The position numbers and the translations under genes were made by a program. Source: Halopseudomonas sabulinigri (GTDB taxonomy: Bacteria > Pseudomonadota > Gammaproteobacteria > Pseudomonadales > Pseudomonadaceae). Taken from it: DNA of 64,000 nt. Below, piece after piece: positions 15,812 through 24,853 of this stretch. A model generated the notes under the pieces. It saw nothing but the letters and a program-made list of their open reading frames with translations. It made no database searches and was not told the origin of the DNA. Where the stretch lies: positions 1,736,001 through 1,800,000 of the forward strand of contig NZ_LT629763.1 of the NCBI RefSeq assembly GCF_900105255.1. The letters are read 5' to 3'. Every line of letters starts with the position of its first letter. Positions within the stretch are counted from its first letter, which is position 1.

Positions 15812-15877
15812 CTGCATATCTACTTGCTCCACTACCGGGCATTTGCAATCATCGACCGACTGACCACGCCAAGGAAG

Positions 15878-17230
15878 ATGGACGTTCAACCTATGCCCCG
15901 CACCGCCCTCGAAAGCAACAAACCCGATACCTGCCTGCGGGAACTCTCTGAAAGAATTGAATCAAAACGGTGCGTTGTGGGTATCTACGGACTGGGCTAC
16001 GTCGGCCTGCCGTTGGCACTGCGCTTTGCCGACATGGGTATCAAGGTCATTGGCTTTGATATCGATGCAAACAAAGTTGCCATCCTGAACGGCGGTGGCA
16101 GTTACATTGAGCGCATCACCCGCGAGGCTATTCACCAGGCCCGCGCAAGCGGCTTTGAGGCAACTGCAGACTTCAGCCGCACCGCTGAGGTGGATGCACA
16201 GATCATCTGCGTACCCACCCCGCTGGATAGCCACCATCAACCCGACCTTAGCTACGTCACAGATACCGTTGACAGCATTTTGCCGTTTTTCAAGGCTGGC
16301 CAATTGATGAGCCTGGAAAGCACAACCTGGCCCGGCACGACAGAAGAACTGCTGGCGCCGCGACTTTGGGCATGTGGCTTCACCCCTGGCGTCAATTGCG
16401 CGCTGGTGTACTCTCCTGAGCGAGAAGACCCCGGTAACGCGCACTTCAGCACGGCGCAAATCCCCAAGGTCATCGGCGGCATGACGAGCCAGTGCCTGGA
16501 ACTTGGCAGCGCGCTGTACGCCAACGCGATTGAAACCATGGTGCCGGTGAGCAATACCCGCGTGGCCGAGATGACCAAGCTGCTTGAGAATATCCACCGC
16601 GCAGTCAACATCGGCCTGGTCAACGAGATGAAGATCGTTGCCGACAAGATGGACATCAATATTCACGAGGTGATCAACGCGGCCGCCACCAAACCCTTCG
16701 GCTTCGTACCCTATACACCTGGCCCTGGTCTCGGCGGCCACTGCATCCCGATCGACCCTTTCTACCTCACCTGGAAAGCCAAGGAGTACGGGATCAATAC
16801 CCGCTTCATCGAACTGGCTGGTGAGATCAACCACTACATGCCCCACTGGGTGGTGCAGAAGGTTGCCGACGCACTCAACGAGCACGGCAAATCCGTCAAA
16901 GGCAGCCGCATTCTAGTGCTAGGCCTAGCCTACAAGAAGAACATCGACGACACCCGAGAGTCGCCCGCAGTGGAGATCATGTCGCTCTTGCAGGACAAGG
17001 GGGCCGATGTCGCTTACTCGGATCCGCATGTGCCAAGTTTTCCGCAGAAGCGTGACTATCATTTTGACCTGAAATCGGTCGAGCTGACATTCTCTAATAT
17101 TGAAAGTTACGACTGCTTGGTACTAGCAACGGACCATGACGGATTTGACTACGAGAGCTTGTCCGAGCATGCGAAGCTTATCATCGACACCCGAGGGCGT
17201 ACCCAAGGGGAGAACGTGATTAATGCCTGA
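15878..17230 (+). CDS. UDP-N-acetyl-sugar 6-dehydrogenase, WbpA-like
   Basis: A nucleotide-sugar dehydrogenase of the UDP-GlcNAc/ManNAc 6-dehydrogenase group, which produces uronic acid sugar precursors for surface polysaccharides. The N-terminal Rossmann motif [10 protein letters not shown], the central [18 protein letters not shown] helix and the catalytic Cys in GGHCIPIDP are present, followed by the C-terminal UDP-binding domain ([16 protein letters not shown]). The length is about 450 residues. The start is uncertain (ATG 15878, ATG 15893 or an upstream TTG). It overlaps the following GT4 gene by eight bases, so the two are co-transcribed. Confidence 0.88.
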
Positions 17231-18392
17231 TCCCAAGCGACAAAAGATACTGATCATCACCCGTAACCTGCCGCCGCTGGTGGGAGGAATGGAACGACTT
17301 AACTGGCACATGGCTGATGAGCTGTCTAAACATGCAGATGTGTGCGTGATTGGCCCGAGAGGTGCTGCCGCTAACAAGCCTGAAGCAGTGCAACTAGCAG
17401 AGGCACCTATAAAGCCTCTGCCGCTGTTTCTTTTGGTCAGTTTAATAAAAGGGCTGTGGAGCGCAATATTCTGGCGGCCAGATACAGTGCTAGCAGGCAG
17501 CGGTCTAACCTCGCCCTCGGTATGGCTGCTCAGCAAAGTATGCAGGGCCAGGTCCGCAGCTTACCTCCATGGTTTTGACATTACGGTTGACCACTGGCTT
17601 TATCGCAAGGTCTGGCGCCCAACGTTCAAGAAGCTCAATACCGTCATAGTCAATAGCACCCCTACACGGGAGCTAGCTCTAGCCGCAGGGGTACCTTCCG
17701 CAAATATAAGTATCGTATTCCCGGGAGTCACCCTGCCGGAAGCCGCACAACCTTTAAGCCGAATCAACAAATTCAAGCGCCAACAGGGGTTAGAGGGCAA
17801 GAAAATCCTGCTGTCCGTGGGGCGATTAACGACACGCAAGGGTTTACGGGAGTTTGTTGAGTTCAGCTTGCCGAAAATAGTAAGTGCCGAGCCAAACGCT
17901 GTTCTAGTTATCGTTGGCGAGGCACCGAAAAACTCGCTTGGCGCAAGCGTGCAGACTGTTGAAAGCATCCAGGAGCAAGCTAATAGGTCAGGTGTCGGGA
18001 AACACATCAAGTTTCTCGGCGTAATCACCGAAAAAACGTACCTGGCTACCGTGTATGAGGCAGCCCATTTACACGTATTCCCAGTCCGCGCTATACCCAA
18101 CGACCCTGAAGGCTTCGGCATGGTTGCTATCGAAGCCGCTGCGCATGGCTTACCTACAGTAGCATTTGCTACCGGAGGAGTAGTAGATGCGGTTAAAAAC
18201 AGAACGTCAGGAGAGCTGATTGAACGGCAGGACTATGGTGCACTAGCACAGGCAGTAATAGAAAATCTGAAGACCACAAGCACAACGCCAGATATGTGTA
18301 GCAGATTCGCACTAGACTTTGGATGGACCGCGTTCGGTCGAAATCTGCAAAGCGTCATCCATCATTTACCAGGCGCGTCCGGAAGCGACTAG
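17223..18392 (+). CDS. GT4-family glycosyltransferase
   Basis: A 389-residue GT-B fold retaining glycosyltransferase. The N-terminal lobe begins with [19 protein letters not shown], typical of GT4. The C-terminal lobe has [13 protein letters not shown] and the nucleotide-sugar binding E-x7-E region [17 protein letters not shown]. The start ATG overlaps the end of the UDP-sugar dehydrogenase gene. Its last 27 bases overlap the convergent end of the sialyltransferase-like gene. The acceptor is unknown; it probably adds a sugar to a surface glycan. Confidence 0.9.
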
Positions 18393-19343
18393 TCTTTGTT
18401 GACGGTCGGTTAATGTTTCGTAAAGCGGATCAAAGCCAGGAAAGCGGCGGGTCTCGCGACCGAAGAGGAATTTGGACACATAAGCGAATGTAGAGCTAGG
18501 TGTGACAACCTGAACAATCTGCTCAGAGCAACGCATCAAAATCCACTCTGCCGGAGTGTCTGCCGGCAGAACAGCAAACTTCCTGTATTTAGTCACATTT
18601 TCAATGGGGTGTGGCTTGATCAACAGATCAGCTAACCCTGTGAGAGAAACACGAAGTACGTCAAGCTCTGCAAGCAATTGCTCTTCGCTAATCAAACCTA
18701 ACTCCACCACAGGCGGCGTCACGACTAGAATATATTTTCCTGCGCCAGGCAAAGAAAAATCCATGGGGCTCAGCGTGTCTAGCACGTCCAAATACGACGA
18801 GCTCATACGCTGATCCAGCCTAAATGAACTATCAAAAATAAAGCAACGCTCATTCACGCGAAACTTGAAATACGAATTCAAAAGAAATATTACGGCCAGC
18901 GCCAAGGCATATTTTATAGGCAATGGCAACTTCACGCGCGCCAAGTCTTCTCTCAAATATGCTTTAACGTCCTGCCGGTAACCGCCGTAAGACCCCAGCC
19001 CCTCCTCCGTAAGTATCAGCTTGACTGAAGCTGCCTTGCTACTAATAAGCTTATATACCCTGTAAGGCCGTTTCGTTGGTGTCACTAACCCTACACGCTT
19101 TCTTTCCCATCGTGCATCTAGTAAAAGCGAATTCAGCTCGTCGACTGACTTCAAGAAAAAAACTTCTTCCGCGCATTCGCTCATTACTCTTTCATTCGTT
19201 CGCGCGCTAACGCCTTTAAAAGGGGTAGCCAGAAAGGCAATGCAGCGGGGCTTGGTCTTTAGACGCTTAAAATAAGCCAGCACGCCCAGCAGATGGTACC
19301 AAGACGAGAACTTGCAGACGTATAAGTCCATCTCACGCACCAT
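18366..19343 (-). CDS. Putative GT-B glycosyltransferase with sialyltransferase-type motifs
   Basis: A 325-residue protein with no close relative that I recognise. It carries, in order, EEG (113-115, in LTEEGLGSYGGY), HP (245-246, in LIKPHPIEN) and SST (283-285, in TPSSTFAYVSKFLFG). These are the D/E-D/E-G, HP and S-S/T motifs shared by bacterial sialyl- and polysialyltransferases of GT38, GT52 and GT80. One hydrophobic stretch (about 143-158) may be a membrane association. GGAG lies five bases before the ATG. It is the last gene of the five-gene operon. The donor sugar need not be sialic acid, because no neuABC-type genes are seen. Confidence 0.6.
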   Translation of the reverse strand: MVREMDLYVCKFSSWYHLLGVLAYFKRLKTKPRCIAFLATPFKGVSARTNERVMSECAEEVFFLKSVDELNSLLLDARWERKRVGLVTPTKRPYRVYKLISSKAASVKLILTEEGLGSYGGYRQDVKAYLREDLARVKLPLPIKYALALAVIFLLNSYFKFRVNERCFIFDSSFRLDQRMSSSYLDVLDTLSPMDFSLPGAGKYILVVTPPVVELGLISEEQLLAELDVLRVSLTGLADLLIKPHPIENVTKYRKFAVLPADTPAEWILMRCSEQIVQVVTPSSTFAYVSKFLFGRETRRFPGFDPLYETLTDRQQRLVASGRAW

Positions 19344-19358
19344 AGAGTCTCCATAAAA

Positions 19359-20651
19359 TTAAATCAGTCGAAATTTGGACGGCGTCTTCTTAAAATAGAC
19401 CGCCCACTTGGCTAGCATCAAAAACAGAAATGCAAAGAAAACACTAGCAGGCACCGCATAGATAGAAGAGTAAAAAGAGACCACATAAACAGAGCAGAAA
19501 AATAGAGGCAGCATGCTTACATGGCAGGCAAAAACCGCTCTATCCAGCCGCTGCGCATACAATGCAAAATGCGCCACCATAGACAAAGAAAAGACCACTT
19601 GCGACAACAACAAGAAAAGCAAAATCCCCATATACTCGAAATACACATCATTCCGAATGAAGAGCTGTATATATGGAAACACCAGCAATATAAAAATCGA
19701 GCTTAATATCGAAAACACAAAAGCAGAAAACAACATTTTACGCAACAAGGATTTGAATACATCCGAATCCCCAGACTCCCATGCAGACATTACTTTCGGA
19801 TACAAGTAACTAAAAACCCCTGCATCCAAGAAAGAACCTATCGCACCGGCAATACCCGCATACAGCACAAACGCAGCCAGAACGTAACTGCCAACGAAGT
19901 CCTCAAACAGGAAACGATCCAAGGTTCCTATCGCCTTAAGCGATAACGAAGAGAGCCAGTACGGTAGTGAGGTACCAACCCCCAACCAAACCCAATGCCA
20001 CCCCAGGAATCTGCGAGCACCTCCGGCAAAAAGCTTTTCTTTAATCAGAATCAGGGACAGCGTAGCGGCTACCAACCCGCCCAGCATCCAGGCGAGCAAA
20101 AGATCTTTTAAGCCTATATCATCCGGAAAAAAAAATAGCAGCACGCTCATAAGGATAGCCCAAATCCCTGAGCGAAAAAACATCACAACACCTGCACCAA
20201 ACGGCTTACCTAATACCACCAGAAGTCTACCGCACTCTTGGCCAACTAATTCGAATAAAAATATAGGGATAAGAAAGTAGCCAACAGAAGCCCAACCGTT
20301 GTCAGCAAAAAACAGCATAAACACGACATAAAAAACACAAATTGTCAGTGCCGTGCAAAACAAAAAAACACCGTGGGACAACAATACATCAGAGACATAA
20401 ATCTTTCGCTGCCCCAGCAAGGTTCGCGCTGAGTACACATAAAACTCAGCGCCAGCCACATATTGGAAAAAGACGACTAACGCTGCGAACAAACCAAAAA
20501 AACCAAATTCGTATGGGGTAAGCGCCTTCGCCGCAAGGAAAAGAAGGGAAAAACGAGAAAGAAGCGTTATCGCTCTAAGAGCCATACTAGCAGCCGGAAG
20601 CACACCACCCCGAAGACTTATCACCACTTCACATTTCTTCTTCAGCAACAT
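19359..20651 (-). CDS. Wzx-like polysaccharide flippase
   Basis: A roughly 430-residue polytopic membrane protein with about 12 hydrophobic segments, in the MOP superfamily pattern of O-antigen/oligosaccharide flippases. It would move lipid-linked glycans across the inner membrane. The segment LRAITLLSRFSLLFLAAKALTPYEFGFFGLF is the typical N-terminal Wzx region. The ATG at 20651 overlaps the upstream GT2 gene by 23 bases. GTG codons at 20627 or 20624 are alternative starts with less overlap. The sequence is strongly AT-rich compared with housekeeping genes in the window. Confidence 0.82.
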   Translation of the reverse strand: MLLKKKCEVVISLRGGVLPAASMALRAITLLSRFSLLFLAAKALTPYEFGFFGLFAALVVFFQYVAGAEFYVYSARTLLGQRKIYVSDVLLSHGVFLFCTALTICVFYVVFMLFFADNGWASVGYFLIPIFLFELVGQECGRLLVVLGKPFGAGVVMFFRSGIWAILMSVLLFFFPDDIGLKDLLLAWMLGGLVAATLSLILIKEKLFAGGARRFLGWHWVWLGVGTSLPYWLSSLSLKAIGTLDRFLFEDFVGSYVLAAFVLYAGIAGAIGSFLDAGVFSYLYPKVMSAWESGDSDVFKSLLRKMLFSAFVFSILSSIFILLVFPYIQLFIRNDVYFEYMGILLFLLLSQVVFSLSMVAHFALYAQRLDRAVFACHVSMLPLFFCSVYVVSFYSSIYAVPASVFFAFLFLMLAKWAVYFKKTPSKFRLI

Positions 20652-21579
20652 ATTGTCGCTGGTAACGGGTTCCGGAAAAATAGAACACGGCCGACGCTAG
20701 TCTAACGAAAAATCGCTTGATGAAAAATGGAAGTGGTCGCGAAACGATATTTTTGGCAATAACGAGAACACCCTGTCTAAACAAAGAAAAAAAACAGAGC
20801 AGTACACGTGAAAAGAAACCCGCACTATTAATATCGACACGACTGTACGCCATCTCCGCATAGGCCTCAGGGTGTCGCGCCCTAAATATATATGAAGTAT
20901 AGCTCCCTGCTTCGAACATTTTTTTACATACAGTAGGCAGTGAGATGTCATCATCATGATAAACGGCTGATTCAACAGCGTACTCTGGCTGTACGCCCAT
21001 CTCAATCAGTCTAATAATCCAATCACGATCCTCAAATCCATAATGTGTATAGGCACAATCAAACCCGCCGGACTTGACAAAATACTCGCGTGAAACCGCA
21101 CAGTACTGAGTTGAGAATGCGAGCGGATTGCCATCGTAAAATTCACGCTCTCGATCTAGCATTAACTGATTGAAATACTCAGACCAGAACCCAAATCCTT
21201 CTGACTTTAGCTTCCCAAAAACAACAGCAGCGTTAGAACCCAGGTAGGGAAGAAGGGACATAAGCGTAAGCTCTGACTCTGCCCTACAGTCCGCATCCAA
21301 AATTATTAAATAATCCGCCACACTAGTGACTGCGCCGGCATTGACTGCTCCCCCGCGCCCGAGAGATTTCTCGTTCCTTATTACACGAATGGTATGCCCT
21401 TCTTCCAGTTTCGGGAGGTGACGAATAACGCTGTCAGACTCCGTAGAGCCATCATCCACAACACATATTTTCACATCACACTTTTGGCCAACCTGTTGAT
21501 TCAGCCAGGACTCTATAACCTCAGCGAAAACCCTGCCCGGATTTTTAACCGGAATGACGACTTCTATGCTAAGCATCAT
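20629..21579 (-). CDS. GT2-family glycosyltransferase
   Basis: A 316-residue GT-A fold transferase. It begins with the strand IEVVIPVKNPGRVFAEVIESWLNQ. The nucleotide-binding VVDDGSTES and the metal-binding DAD (residues 95-97) follow, then GFEDRDWIIRLIEMG in the acceptor half. A short hydrophobic C-terminal segment may tether it to the membrane. It lies 25 bases after the DPM-like GT2 gene and overlaps the flippase gene, so it is part of the same operon. Donor and acceptor are unknown. Confidence 0.88.
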   Translation of the reverse strand: MMLSIEVVIPVKNPGRVFAEVIESWLNQQVGQKCDVKICVVDDGSTESDSVIRHLPKLEEGHTIRVIRNEKSLGRGGAVNAGAVTSVADYLIILDADCRAESELTLMSLLPYLGSNAAVVFGKLKSEGFGFWSEYFNQLMLDREREFYDGNPLAFSTQYCAVSREYFVKSGGFDCAYTHYGFEDRDWIIRLIEMGVQPEYAVESAVYHDDDISLPTVCKKMFEAGSYTSYIFRARHPEAYAEMAYSRVDINSAGFFSRVLLCFFSLFRQGVLVIAKNIVSRPLPFFIKRFFVRLASAVFYFSGTRYQRQYVAEEEM

Positions 21580-21604
21580 TTAATTTCCGCAATCAACGCA
21601 ATTA

Positions 21605-22453
21605 TCAATCACCTTTATACATCAAGGCAGTAATTTGTTCGGAGATAAGTCCCATAAGAAAAACCATCACGCTTCCAGTATAAAGAAGCGCGCTCATATT
21701 GGTAAATCGGCCAAAAGTGCCGAGCGTGTAGGCATACCAAGCTGACGCCATAAAAAACGCAATAGCAGCAATGGGCGCAAATAGTTTAAGCGGCGAGTAT
21801 AAAGTGCCGACTTTAAAAATAATAAGCAAAAATCGTAGACCATCACGCAGTGGCCTTATGTGGCTTCGCCCCTCACGTTTCGCAGCATGAATAGGCATAT
21901 AAGCCACCGAGTAACCTGCACGGAAAAACGCCATTGTTGACGTAGTTGGATAGGAAAAACCATTTGGTAGCAGATAGACAAACTCCATGAACTTAGCTGC
22001 TCGCACCGCGCGGAAGCCCGAAGTAAGGTCCTCTACCTTACGTCCTGTCATGTAGGTGGCGAGCCTGTTATAAAACCCATTAGCCACTCCCCGACCTATG
22101 CTAGCTTGAGAGCCTTGCTGTCGGGCACCTACTACCAGATCGTAACCATCACCAATTAGGTCGAGCAACCCTTGAATATCTGCGGGGTCATGCTGGCCAT
22201 CCGCGTCCATAAATACGATCACGTCGCCAGACGCGACCCTTGCGCCAGATTTGATCGCAGCTCCATTACCTTTGCTATATGGGTGCGATACAACCAACGC
22301 TCCGGCTTGTCTGGCCGCACTTTCGGTGTCGTCTGAAGAGCCATCATTGACCACAATTACTTCAAAACCTGGGTACGTGGCAACAATATTAGCTACAACC
22401 TTCCCGACAGAGACTCCTTCGTTCTTAGCTGGCAATACAACACTCACCTTCAC
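21605..22453 (-). CDS. GT2 glycosyltransferase, dolichol-phosphate mannose synthase-like
   Basis: A 282-residue transferase of the DPM/GtrB-like group, which typically charges a polyprenyl phosphate with a sugar. Motifs: VSVVLPAKNEG, VVNDGSSDD, the catalytic DADGQHD and the DLTSGFRAVRA segment. Two C-terminal membrane segments follow (LFAPIAAIAFFMASAWYAYT and SALLYTGSVMVFLMGLIS). The start codon is GTG with GGAGG seven bases upstream, and it overlaps the preceding gene's TGA as GTGA. A polyprenyl-phosphate sugar would suit the GT-C-like protein encoded just upstream as donor; this pairing is inferred. Confidence 0.88.
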   Translation of the reverse strand: MKVSVVLPAKNEGVSVGKVVANIVATYPGFEVIVVNDGSSDDTESAARQAGALVVSHPYSKGNGAAIKSGARVASGDVIVFMDADGQHDPADIQGLLDLIGDGYDLVVGARQQGSQASIGRGVANGFYNRLATYMTGRKVEDLTSGFRAVRAAKFMEFVYLLPNGFSYPTTSTMAFFRAGYSVAYMPIHAAKREGRSHIRPLRDGLRFLLIIFKVGTLYSPLKLFAPIAAIAFFMASAWYAYTLGTFGRFTNMSALLYTGSVMVFLMGLISEQITALMYKGD

Positions 22454-24396
22454 TCGCGCGCCTCCGCTATTGCTTGTTTCATGGCAGATAGCAACTCAGC
22501 CGGCAAGGTTGAAGCTACCTGCGCGTCATTTTCACGCCTGGCAATCGCCTGCTCAGCACGACTTATATCTCCCTGCTCCAGAGCAAAGTAGACTTGGTAC
22601 TGAAGAACAGGCACCGCGTCAGGAGCAATATTCTCAGCTTGGGACAAAGAGCGCCATACCATATCAACCTGTCCCAGTTCTTGCTCAATCATCGCCTTAA
22701 CAAAGTAGATTTTTGCTCCATACACGGCAACGTTCATCTTAGAACTCTGTTCAAGGAGCTCAATCAATGAAAGTAGATCTGAAAAACCTAGCGACCCGCA
22801 TTGATTTGCAGACAGTAGCGTGTGCAAATTAAAAAGCTGATCAACAACCGTTACATTTATCCGGCCAGTTTCTGCTACGGAAATCGCTTCTCGCATTCTG
22901 CTTGCGGTATCGTGACCATCTGAAATAACACATGAATACATCACGCCTTGCAGCCTGATATCCAAGCAATCCGGACATGCCTGCTTGGTTCTATCCAAGA
23001 CTTTCAGAGCAAATGCCATCCTCTCTCGCGAGATATATTCGCTATTCTGCTCTCCCAGCGCGGCGAGATCGTCTTTGCTTTGCTCAAGAAAAACAGCGTG
23101 CAAAGCTGCCCTAGCAGACCCTGGATGACGTTTATTCCAAGTGTCCGCGGCCTCTTGTGGTTGCCCCCAGAGACTAGTAATCGCCAACAAAACAGCAGCA
23201 AGCAACACGATATAGGCCCCGAGAAGCCAAGGTGCAACACGTGCTATCTTGCCTTTCGCAGTAAAGGCTGCAACGGTCAAAAACAAGCATATGCCGTACA
23301 TAGCAACATAGTTTCTATGCTCAAAGTAGAGCTCGAGCATAAGGCTTGTTGATTCAATAAGGTGTCCAGCAACAAACCATAAAACGGCAAAACTAAAAAA
23401 CTTGTAACGGCTTCGATAAGCGAACGCGAACAACAAGACTGCTAGCCACGACATACCAGCAGCAATAACGCCTAGGTCGAGAGTTTTTAAACCGTAATAG
23501 TCATGGAATGGACCATACGCAGTAGGTGACTGAGGGAAAAACCCTCTATAGAGGTACTCCCACAGGACCACCCACTCGGTCACCACCCTATCCGCAGGTG
23601 AAAATCCTCTATAGCTATTGACCGCAAACCAATCGAAGCGGATAGGTGAAATATAAAACAGGACAAACAACAAGGGAGCACATAGCACCAACCTTCTCAG
23701 CCAAGGCCACCCATCGCGCTCACCTTTTAGCCTTACCACAAAGAAATCGATCAGCAGAGCAAACACAGGGAAAAGCGCTCCGCTTTCCTTCGTATATATC
23801 GAAAGCAGCGTACCCAAACCCAACACTGATAACTGCGCAAGCGTACCAAAAAGCGGCCCACGCACAGCCCAAGCATAGCCCTTGATAAAGCCCAACAACC
23901 CCATCAAGCCAAATAATGTCGCCAGGCCCGTCATTCTCTGGATAGCAATCAAGGAAGCCGATGCCAATATAGGCAAAACCGCCCACATCAGCGCAGACAT
24001 TAGCGCTACACGAAAATGCAACCGACGCTCAACATTGCCGATCAATGCAAGGCATTCACGTCCGATTAGAAAAAACAAAAGAAAATTGAAGCAATGAACA
24101 ACAACATTAAAAAAGAGAATACCTTGGCTATTCTCAGGCCAACCAGACGCAAACGGGACAAAACTCAAGAGGGCAATGGGCCGACCTAACGGGCCGGCAT
24201 GGCCTCCACTCACAAAGGACCAAGCCTCTCCCCAGCTTTGTATACTCGCCAACCCCTCAAGATTCGAGTAGTCATCGTAATAAAGAGCTCCGGAAATTCC
24301 CGGAATATATATAAGCACCAAAAGTACAGCGCAAAATAATACCAGCGACAGCTTCGCGAATTTACCCACTTGCAACGAGTTCCCGACTAAGTACAT
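22450..24396 (-). CDS. Multi-membrane GT-C-like protein with TPR-like C-terminal domain
   Basis: A protein of about 648 residues. Residues up to roughly 420 contain about 10-12 hydrophobic segments. The first periplasmic loop carries an acidic pair (GALYYDDYSNLEG), as expected for the catalytic site of GT-C transferases. A later loop has LELYFEHRNY. The last 220 residues are soluble and helical, resembling TPR-like repeats. The layout resembles TMTC-type or oligosaccharyltransferase-like proteins. It sits 47 bases downstream of pilA with a terminator hairpin in between, and is followed by a DPM-like transferase. Pilin or surface glycosylation is inferred. The ATG at 24396 is uncertain. Confidence 0.6.
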   Translation of the reverse strand: MYLVGNSLQVGKFAKLSLVLFCAVLLVLIYIPGISGALYYDDYSNLEGLASIQSWGEAWSFVSGGHAGPLGRPIALLSFVPFASGWPENSQGILFFNVVVHCFNFLLFFLIGRECLALIGNVERRLHFRVALMSALMWAVLPILASASLIAIQRMTGLATLFGLMGLLGFIKGYAWAVRGPLFGTLAQLSVLGLGTLLSIYTKESGALFPVFALLIDFFVVRLKGERDGWPWLRRLVLCAPLLFVLFYISPIRFDWFAVNSYRGFSPADRVVTEWVVLWEYLYRGFFPQSPTAYGPFHDYYGLKTLDLGVIAAGMSWLAVLLFAFAYRSRYKFFSFAVLWFVAGHLIESTSLMLELYFEHRNYVAMYGICLFLTVAAFTAKGKIARVAPWLLGAYIVLLAAVLLAITSLWGQPQEAADTWNKRHPGSARAALHAVFLEQSKDDLAALGEQNSEYISRERMAFALKVLDRTKQACPDCLDIRLQGVMYSCVISDGHDTASRMREAISVAETGRINVTVVDQLFNLHTLLSANQCGSLGFSDLLSLIELLEQSSKMNVAVYGAKIYFVKAMIEQELGQVDMVWRSLSQAENIAPDAVPVLQYQVYFALEQGDISRAEQAIARRENDAQVASTLPAELLSAMKQAIAEARE

Positions 24397-24400
24397 AAAC

Positions 24401-24430
24401 AAAAACCCCGGCTAGACAGCCGGGGTTTTT
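24401..24430 (-). terminator. Strong intrinsic terminator after pilA
   Basis: A 13-bp inverted repeat (AAAAACCCCGGCT / AGCCGGGGTTTTT) with a four-base loop and T-runs on both sides starts 13 bases beyond the pilA stop. It probably ends most pilA transcripts. Its 3' arm lies only a few bases before the ATG of the next gene. Confidence 0.88.
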
Positions 24431-24442
24431 TTTGGCTAGCGA

Positions 24443-24853
24443 TTAGCCACGGCAAGAGCCTGGCATCCACTTGGTTGGGGTACCGGAGCAAATCCAAGCG
24501 GCGATGTTGTTGCGCGAGGTACCGGAAGGAGTCAGCGTCACAGTAATGGTCTCATCAAACTCACCAGCTTGGCTGTCAATGGTAATAGTACCATCGTTCG
24601 CCACTGCCAAATTGGTCGCGTATTGAGTGCCGATGAAGTCGCTATCGCAGGTCGCCAACTGGGCGCCAAATCCGTTCGACTGAACAATCTCAGTTACACA
24701 AGTACGCGCAGAACTGGCGGCCAGTACGATCTCAGAAGCCTTAGCGCGATTGGTGTAATCTTGGTATGCCGGCAGAGCGATGGCGGCGAGAATACCGATG
24801 ATCGCAACAACGATCATCAGTTCGATCAAGGTAAAACCCTTTTGAGCTTTCAT
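24443..24853 (-). CDS. pilA: Major type IVa pilin PilA
   Basis: This is the structural subunit of type IV pili. The 136-residue precursor has the short leader MKAQKG, with PilD cleavage before Phe, and Glu at mature position 5. The hydrophobic N-terminal helix [20 protein letters not shown] follows. A C-terminal disulfide loop is likely between the cysteines in [10 protein letters not shown] and GSCRG. The protein ends in Gly, not the Ser used for TfpO-type O-glycosylation in P. aeruginosa group I pilins. AAGGAG lies six bases before the ATG. It is divergent from pilBCD. Confidence 0.97.

Follow-up and report, generated by a model that had tools for sequence, protein, structure and literature searches.

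Directly after the major pilin gene pilA, Halopseudomonas sabulinigri carries five further genes on the same strand that, in our best reading, form a real, exchangeable pilin-modification island; the first of them, g1, probably encodes the transferase that attaches a polyprenyl-linked glycan to PilA. The locus lies in a 64,000-nucleotide stretch (as a whole, the window) of the 4.03-Mb, single-contig host genome; loci and genomes compared with it carry our own L and G numbers. From 15 kb the window encodes a GATase, a UDP-sugar dehydrogenase and a GT4 glycosyltransferase on the plus strand, then g5, g4, g3, g2, g1 and pilA on the minus strand, then pilB, pilC and pilD (names assigned by reading the sequences) on the plus strand. 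We infer glycosylation itself from features that were computed directly, namely gene order, linkage, fold, conserved motifs, remote homology to the pilin transferase TfpW and a hairpin between pilA and g1. The initial annotation of this DNA had described five minus-strand genes, overlapping or closely spaced, starting just after pilA, and all five open reading frames (ORFs) were recovered, with spacings of 15, −23, 25 and −4 bases from g5 to g1.

Linkage of g1 to the pilin gene

The proposed acceptor, PilA (24443..24853, minus strand), is a major type IV pilin (PF00114, PF07963; PDB match to Neisseria PilE, 4.1e-18) that ends in Gly, and g1 (22450..24396, minus strand) follows it. We assessed linkage in 95 sources (the window, L017–L028, L087–L166, L208 and L209), whose 105 g1-like ORFs of more than 500 aa reduce to 100 when five with identical last 200 residues are dropped, some of those kept being tandem pairs of one locus. 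For 59 of the 100, a same-strand pilin lies at most 1.5 kb upstream (47 of them within 150 bp); among other ORFs of at least 300 aa in the same loci this holds for 11 of 479, a background test that is slightly narrower and counts loci with two g1 genes twice; the seed loci were chosen by homology and are mostly pilA-linked, which may bias the set. The figure of 59 is slightly low because the g1 ORF of L017 was read from an upstream start and its pilA missed; this locus, in which pilA does adjoin g1, is missing from the linkage, covariation, flippase, pilin-tail and hairpin sets. A gene more than 50% identical to g2 follows g1 in 49 of the 100, and pilin and g2 are both present in 35. A looser count in the best-80 set, less L134 and L157 (no complete g1 ORF), gives a pilin upstream in 49/78 and a g2-like gene downstream in 41/78. 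The pattern named at the outset as contrary to a pilin role, with homologues regularly placed in O-antigen clusters at a distance from pilA, was not seen: besides the 59 downstream of a pilin, 20 more share their locus with a pil gene or a pilin-like ORF. Of 37 genomes in the genus, five carry g1 (E ≤ 0.001) and the same five carry g2 (E ≤ 1e-60), an overlap that two randomly drawn five-genome sets would show with a chance of 2.3e-6, uncorrected for ancestry.

Pilin variable-region distance correlates with that of g1 (Mantel r = 0.45, p = 0.0005, n = 35), also with pilB controlled (r = 0.60, p = 0.0005, n = 15). The correlation with g2 is weak (r = 0.12, p = 0.08) and falls to r = −0.02 with g1 controlled. 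This pattern is in keeping with g1 being the component that contacts the pilin. In L026 (G010), identity to the window is 92% in pilB and 73% in g2 but 26% in the pilin variable region and 23% in g1, as joint exchange of pilA and g1 would predict.

Between pilA and g1 stands a terminator-like hairpin (24401..24430, minus strand; 13 pairs, then a T run). A script applied to pilA–g1 gaps of up to 400 bases found such hairpins in 36 of 55 loci against 0.3 expected from base shuffles, within the genus in the window and L018. A terminator after the pilin gene has been proposed to attenuate accessory genes (PMC11841053), and the pilA–g1 hairpin is likely an attenuator: it would pass only part of transcription, and so keep the enzyme level low relative to pilin. 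The start of g1, whose longest ORF spans 22450–24402 (minus strand), is uncertain between ATG 24396, 4 bases past the hairpin (24430–24401), and GTG 24369, which agrees with the shorter N-termini of some homologues; because L017, the closest g1 homologue, preserves the codons upstream of the position matching GTG 24369, ATG 24396 is favoured.

Fold, motifs and relatives of g1

The GT-C-like, multi-membrane character first assigned to g1 is borne out by its predicted structure (AlphaFold2 pLDDT 93.8), in which a multi-transmembrane GT-C core is followed by a C-terminal TPR domain and whose top structural matches are STT3, Pmt1/2, Pmt4 and ArnT. In an alignment of 66 homologues (the window and 65 of 74 listed), D43 is kept in all 66 and D44 in 65, an acidic pair that the GT-C structural match places in the first outer loop; the positions of this pair and of the RP, KE and EHRNY motifs are conserved in 62–66 of the 66. 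No Pfam family matches g1 up to E 10, hence neither DUF1736 nor any of the PglL/PglS domain set (PglL_A, Wzy_C and Wzy_C_2), and at E ≤ 0.01 the 66 homologues together match 23 families, likewise without any of the four. TPR_19 is matched in 26 of the 66, the window g1 itself having no TPR model match. A scan of contigs with g1 alone found no relative, and an alignment-based query found at least 576, of which the best 80 were kept. An order-wide tally of 120/391 is inflated by weak TPR-region matches; at E below 1e-40 it is 60/391, which counts g1-like matches irrespective of pilA linkage. g1 belongs to a large, widespread and so far unnamed family, for whose membrane domain Pfam has no model.

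The closest known counterpart is TfpW, the D-arabinofuranosyl transferase of group IV pilins in P. aeruginosa Pa5196/PA7, which like g1 is a GT-C membrane protein whose gene comes immediately after pilA. Alignment with the PA7 TfpW candidate (hhalign probability 98.3%, E 1.6e-14, 21% identity over 429 columns; HMM 55 bits) makes g1, by sequence comparison, a remote homologue of what we take to be TfpW. The initial annotation, which had not recognised the set as tfpO, tfpW or any other of the pilin-modification genes known beside pilA in P. aeruginosa, could not see this homology. The DD and KE positions of the candidate align with g1, which differs in its EHRNY block and in having QRM where the candidate has RFD; tfpX follows the TfpW gene, whereas g1 has a linked DPM/AglJ-type synthase. 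TfpW relies on a D-arabinofuranose pathway encoded elsewhere (PMC12369383), and this sugar may also be a component of the glycan proposed here. The human O-mannosyltransferases TMTC1–4 share with g1 the GT-C core and C-terminal TPR, and the DD, RP, KE and E..R.Y-like motifs of their Table 4 (PMC7801869) recur in g1 in the same order; unlike them, g1 has no DUF1736, has QRM instead of RxD, is bacterial and is pilin-linked.

TfpO/PilO, TfpM, PglS and PglL are WaaL-like, whereas g1 has no such domain match. TfpO and TfpM act on a C-terminal Ser or Thr, the window PilA ends in Gly, and 53 of the 59 linked pilins end in neither (6/59 end in S or T). These pilin tails and the lack of Wzy_C in g1 rule out a TfpO-like C-terminal Ser route, as the initial annotation had argued from the Gly end, and with pilin linkage in 59/100 they uphold its proposal of a pilin modification system other than TfpO. 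The genes for TfpO, TfpM and PglS commonly lie close to that of the pilin or pilin-like protein modified, according to a 2025 review that tabulates four O-oligosaccharyltransferase classes, all WaaL-like (PMC12645811). Searches of open-access literature led to TfpW and the WaaL-like classes, and in the titles, opening lines of abstracts and excerpts covered we found no description of a pilA-linked GT-C–TPR family with a DPM/AglJ-type synthase.

Tandem g1 duplicates occur at L021:6720-10621 and as pairs in G402, G185, G153, G130, G191 and G263, and possibly serve two pilin sites or two sugars. Membrane proteins of 225–266 aa beside g1 (L101:5349-6026, L148:7913-8713) resemble the TfpX/TfpY accessory proteins in size and place, and have no notable Pfam match.

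Sugar-lipid synthase, variable cargo and extent of the island

The second gene, g2 (21605..22453, minus strand; PF00535 1.3e-28), encodes a predicted polyprenyl-phosphate sugar synthase of the DPM/GtrB/ArnC/AglJ type, in agreement with its first description as DPM-like; its GT2 domain has ArnC, archaeal DPMS and GtrB (sll0501) as PDB relatives. The best NCBIfam model is AglJ, at 122 bits far under the cut-off of 325. In the Haloferax AglJ pathway a glycan is built on dolichyl monophosphate with cytoplasmic glycosyltransferases, a flippase and a GT-C transferase; the island differs in being bacterial and in the lack of a family-model match for g1.

The conserved core is g1 and g2 only, and g3–g5 are variable cargo. 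g3 (20629..21579, minus strand; PF00535 1.2e-20), a GT2 glycosyltransferase as first called, has a 50% identical homologue in L017, and L018, L019 and L026 carry other genes there. g4 (19359..20651, minus strand) is a presumed Wzx-type flippase by topology only: it has 12 predicted transmembrane segments, no meaningful Pfam or NCBIfam match and no useful PDB match, and a single-sequence AlphaFold2 model was poor (pLDDT 48). g5 (18366..19343, minus strand) is a sialyltransferase-superfamily-like glycosyltransferase for which the original call is weak in the window protein, which stays below the PF07388 cut-off (16.4 bits, E 0.0068, against 23.3), but its 47% identical L017 homologue passes it (26.8 bits). 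No useful PDB match was found for g5, whose homologues occur in 1/293 genomes of the order (the window's own) and in L017. The host genome contains two genes of the NeuB family; one of them, at L210:9380-12755 and some 50 kb ahead of the window, has neighbours that look by eye like PseF, PseG and PseH, so that a nonulosonic acid is a possible, unproven substrate of g5.

Across loci the genes after g2 vary. In 105 downstream proteins (the three ORFs that follow g2 in each of 33 loci plus g3–g5 of the window and L017; L142, another of the 35 loci, had no ORFs after g2), matches at E ≤ 1e-5 include 20 Glycos_transf_1, 7 Glycos_transf_2, 15 Methyltransf_11, 5 ABC_tran, 5 DegT aminotransferases, 4 LPG_synthase_TM, 3 UDP-GlcNAc 2-epimerases and 3 Sulfotransfer_3, among the 25 of 72 families listed. 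Such diverse cargo suggests that a lipid-linked glycan is assembled before transfer, although many loci have no clear flippase nearby. Candidate flippases were scored by length, transmembrane segment count and Walker motif; the ABC-type candidate of L109 has PglK as best match (354 of 1000 bits, below cut-off), and a 290-aa transmembrane protein of L101 matches the flippase-like TIGR00374, also below cut-off.

The unit probably extends to 15824 and takes in the dehydrogenase (15824..17230, plus strand) and the GT4 glycosyltransferase (17223..18392, plus strand; PF00534 4e-27), which converge on g5 at the island's distal end. The dehydrogenase, a likely donor-sugar supplier, is WecC/TviB-like (TIGR03026 423 bits, above cut-off; WecC model 266 bits, below its cut-off of 459). 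Both genes accompany the cluster in L017 and L018 and GT4 does so in L019 and L026, with GT4 homologues 54–67% identical at the cluster's far end in L017, L018, L019, L026 (partial) and L143. Dehydrogenase homologues 72–75% identical occur in L143, L208, L209 and L212, the last three, from the genus of the PA7-like genome, having it within a g1 locus. In P. viridiflava (L143), pilA–g1–g2 and two more genes (GT2-like by eye) are followed by convergent GT4 (54%) and dehydrogenase (75%) genes. The site is nearly empty in the sister genome G022, where 166 bases separate the GATase gene from pilA (~8.6 kb in the window); everything from dehydrogenase to g1 thus resembles one inserted unit. An exception is G019 (L084:486-8791), in which the dehydrogenase and GT4 adjoin pilB with neither pilA nor g1 within the stretch read, and which may be a rearranged copy or an assembly effect. 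The AT-richness once read as pointing to transfer is real in g1–g5 (44.5–48.6% G+C against 58–62% in genes farther out), but pilA (52.6), pilB (52.6) and pilC (49.0) are low too, so low G+C alone is no marker of the island.

Competing readings and other modules beside pilA

In other Halopseudomonas the slot beside pilA holds different modules: ten neighbouring proteins from nine genomes were scanned and the others read by eye. Genes of PglL type, with PglL_A/Wzy_C-type domains, stand there in G025 and G026, and of Wzy_C type in G016 and G023. Known pilin oligosaccharyltransferase types thus alternate with the g1 module in one slot, which independently supports a pilin role. In the remaining sister genomes compared, mostly by eye, no such module was recognised.

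In the pathway that we infer, for catalysis and acceptor as for lipid carrier, glycan structure, flipping and attachment site, g2 would load a sugar onto polyprenyl phosphate in the cytoplasm, and g3, g5 and GT4 would probably extend it, the UDP-sugar dehydrogenase feeding part of the donors. g4, as flippase, would turn the lipid-linked glycan to the periplasm, and g1, with its acidic pair in the first outer loop and its TPR arm, would move it to a Ser/Thr of PilA before or during assembly. A further-reaching version, which we hold less likely than not, extends this to a widespread, unnamed class of pilin oligosaccharyltransferases in Gamma- and Betaproteobacteria, in which g1 and g2 would use a glycan on polyprenyl monophosphate, in archaeal AglJ style, and a TMTC/TfpW-like GT-C–TPR transfer distinct from that of the WaaL-like TfpO, TfpM, PglS and PglL.

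Transfer by g1 to PilA is shared, and our confidence in it overlaps, with a simpler scheme in which g1 passes on only the single sugar made by g2, as PMT and TMTC enzymes do with Dol-P-Man, and a separate surface glycan is the product of g3–g5, GT4 and the dehydrogenase. g2 is of DPM/GtrB type, the single-sugar enzymes Pmt1/2, Pmt4 and ArnT are among the fold matches of g1, and in L024, L027 and L028, where g1 and g2 adjoin pilA, no Wzx/ABC-type flippase is encoded close by on the same strand. However, the oligosaccharide enzymes STT3/AglB match g1 about equally well, g3–g5 of the window overlap or nearly overlap one another and g2 in operon-like fashion, and 20 GT-B and 7 GT2 glycosyltransferases stand among the 105 proteins downstream of g2; single-sugar transfer is rather unlikely in our judgement. 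Far less probable is an O-antigen or capsule operon that lies beside pilA by chance, with g1 acting on a polysaccharide like Gtr-type three-component systems. These combine a GtrB-type synthase, a flippase (GtrA) and a GT-C enzyme (PMC11127046), and the island likewise has a polyprenyl-phosphate sugar synthase, a candidate flippase and a GT-C enzyme; g3 and GT4 are common surface-glycan gene types. The Gtr examples of that paper modify O-antigens, whereas the island is pilin-linked and has a 12-transmembrane candidate flippase and extra glycosyltransferases. Pilin linkage (59/100 against a background of 11/479), pilA–g1 covariation, PglL/Wzy_C-type genes in the same slot and remote homology to a pilin transferase all speak against it, and we set it aside on the linkage. 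The least probable account, which we consider very improbable, makes g1 mainly a pilin assembly or chaperone protein, its TPR arm in a TfpY-like role and no active transferase; the acidic pair, RP, KE and EHRNY, conserved in 62–66 of 66 homologues, and the sugar-lipid synthase linked in 49/100 argue otherwise.

Several observations weigh against transfer of a lipid-linked glycan by g1 to PilA, or against parts of the case for it. No scored pilin stands directly upstream of 41 of the 100 g1-like ORFs (19 with no pil gene or pilin-like ORF in the locus, 2 at contig edges), and a few g1 homologues are paired with a GT2 only 27–31% like g2. A Wzx/ABC-type candidate flippase on the same strand, within the first five ORFs after g2, is present in only 11 of the 35 pilA–g1–g2 loci. 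A dehydrogenase at least 60% identical lies near only 5/100 g1-like ORFs within the stretches examined, making it a non-general partner of g1. L019 and L026, of the same genus, have no hairpin by the script's test. The Mantel tests leave some shared ancestry in, and with pilB alone controlled pilin distance also correlates with g2 (r = 0.30, p = 0.008, n = 15). The identity of the TfpW candidate is itself taken partly from gene order.

If true, bacterial pilin O-glycosylation would gain a large second branch in this pilin-linked GT-C family, which brings its own sugar-lipid synthase, and a transferase free of the C-terminal Ser could serve glycoengineering. By likeness to TfpO and TfpW, the benefit to the host may be phage or surface masking. 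Pilin glycans help P. aeruginosa to escape pilus-specific phages (PMC11841053), and a slot that swaps unrelated modules beside pilA would therefore be a natural setting in which to study phage-driven exchange.

Two further kinds of module occupy the slot. Genes for sulfatase-fold membrane proteins (PF00884) lie beside pilA in G030, G036, G017 and G024 (L076:9740-13212, L077:2604-5205, L070:11220-13894 and L067:2629-4068), and three of the four loci have a partner gene: the sulfatase-fold gene of G030 is followed by one for a Wzy_C protein, and the partners in G036 and G017 resemble that Wzy_C protein at 25–28% identity. The sulfatase-fold proteins are perhaps pilin phosphoform transferases, as is Neisseria PptA. 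In G007 a beta-lactamase-fold gene with an acyltransferase-looking neighbour stands beside pilA (L079:10809-13054; PF00144, L079 alone scanned), and genes similar in length and place to this pair occur in two more genomes, at L081:11191-13190 and L083:11894-13093.

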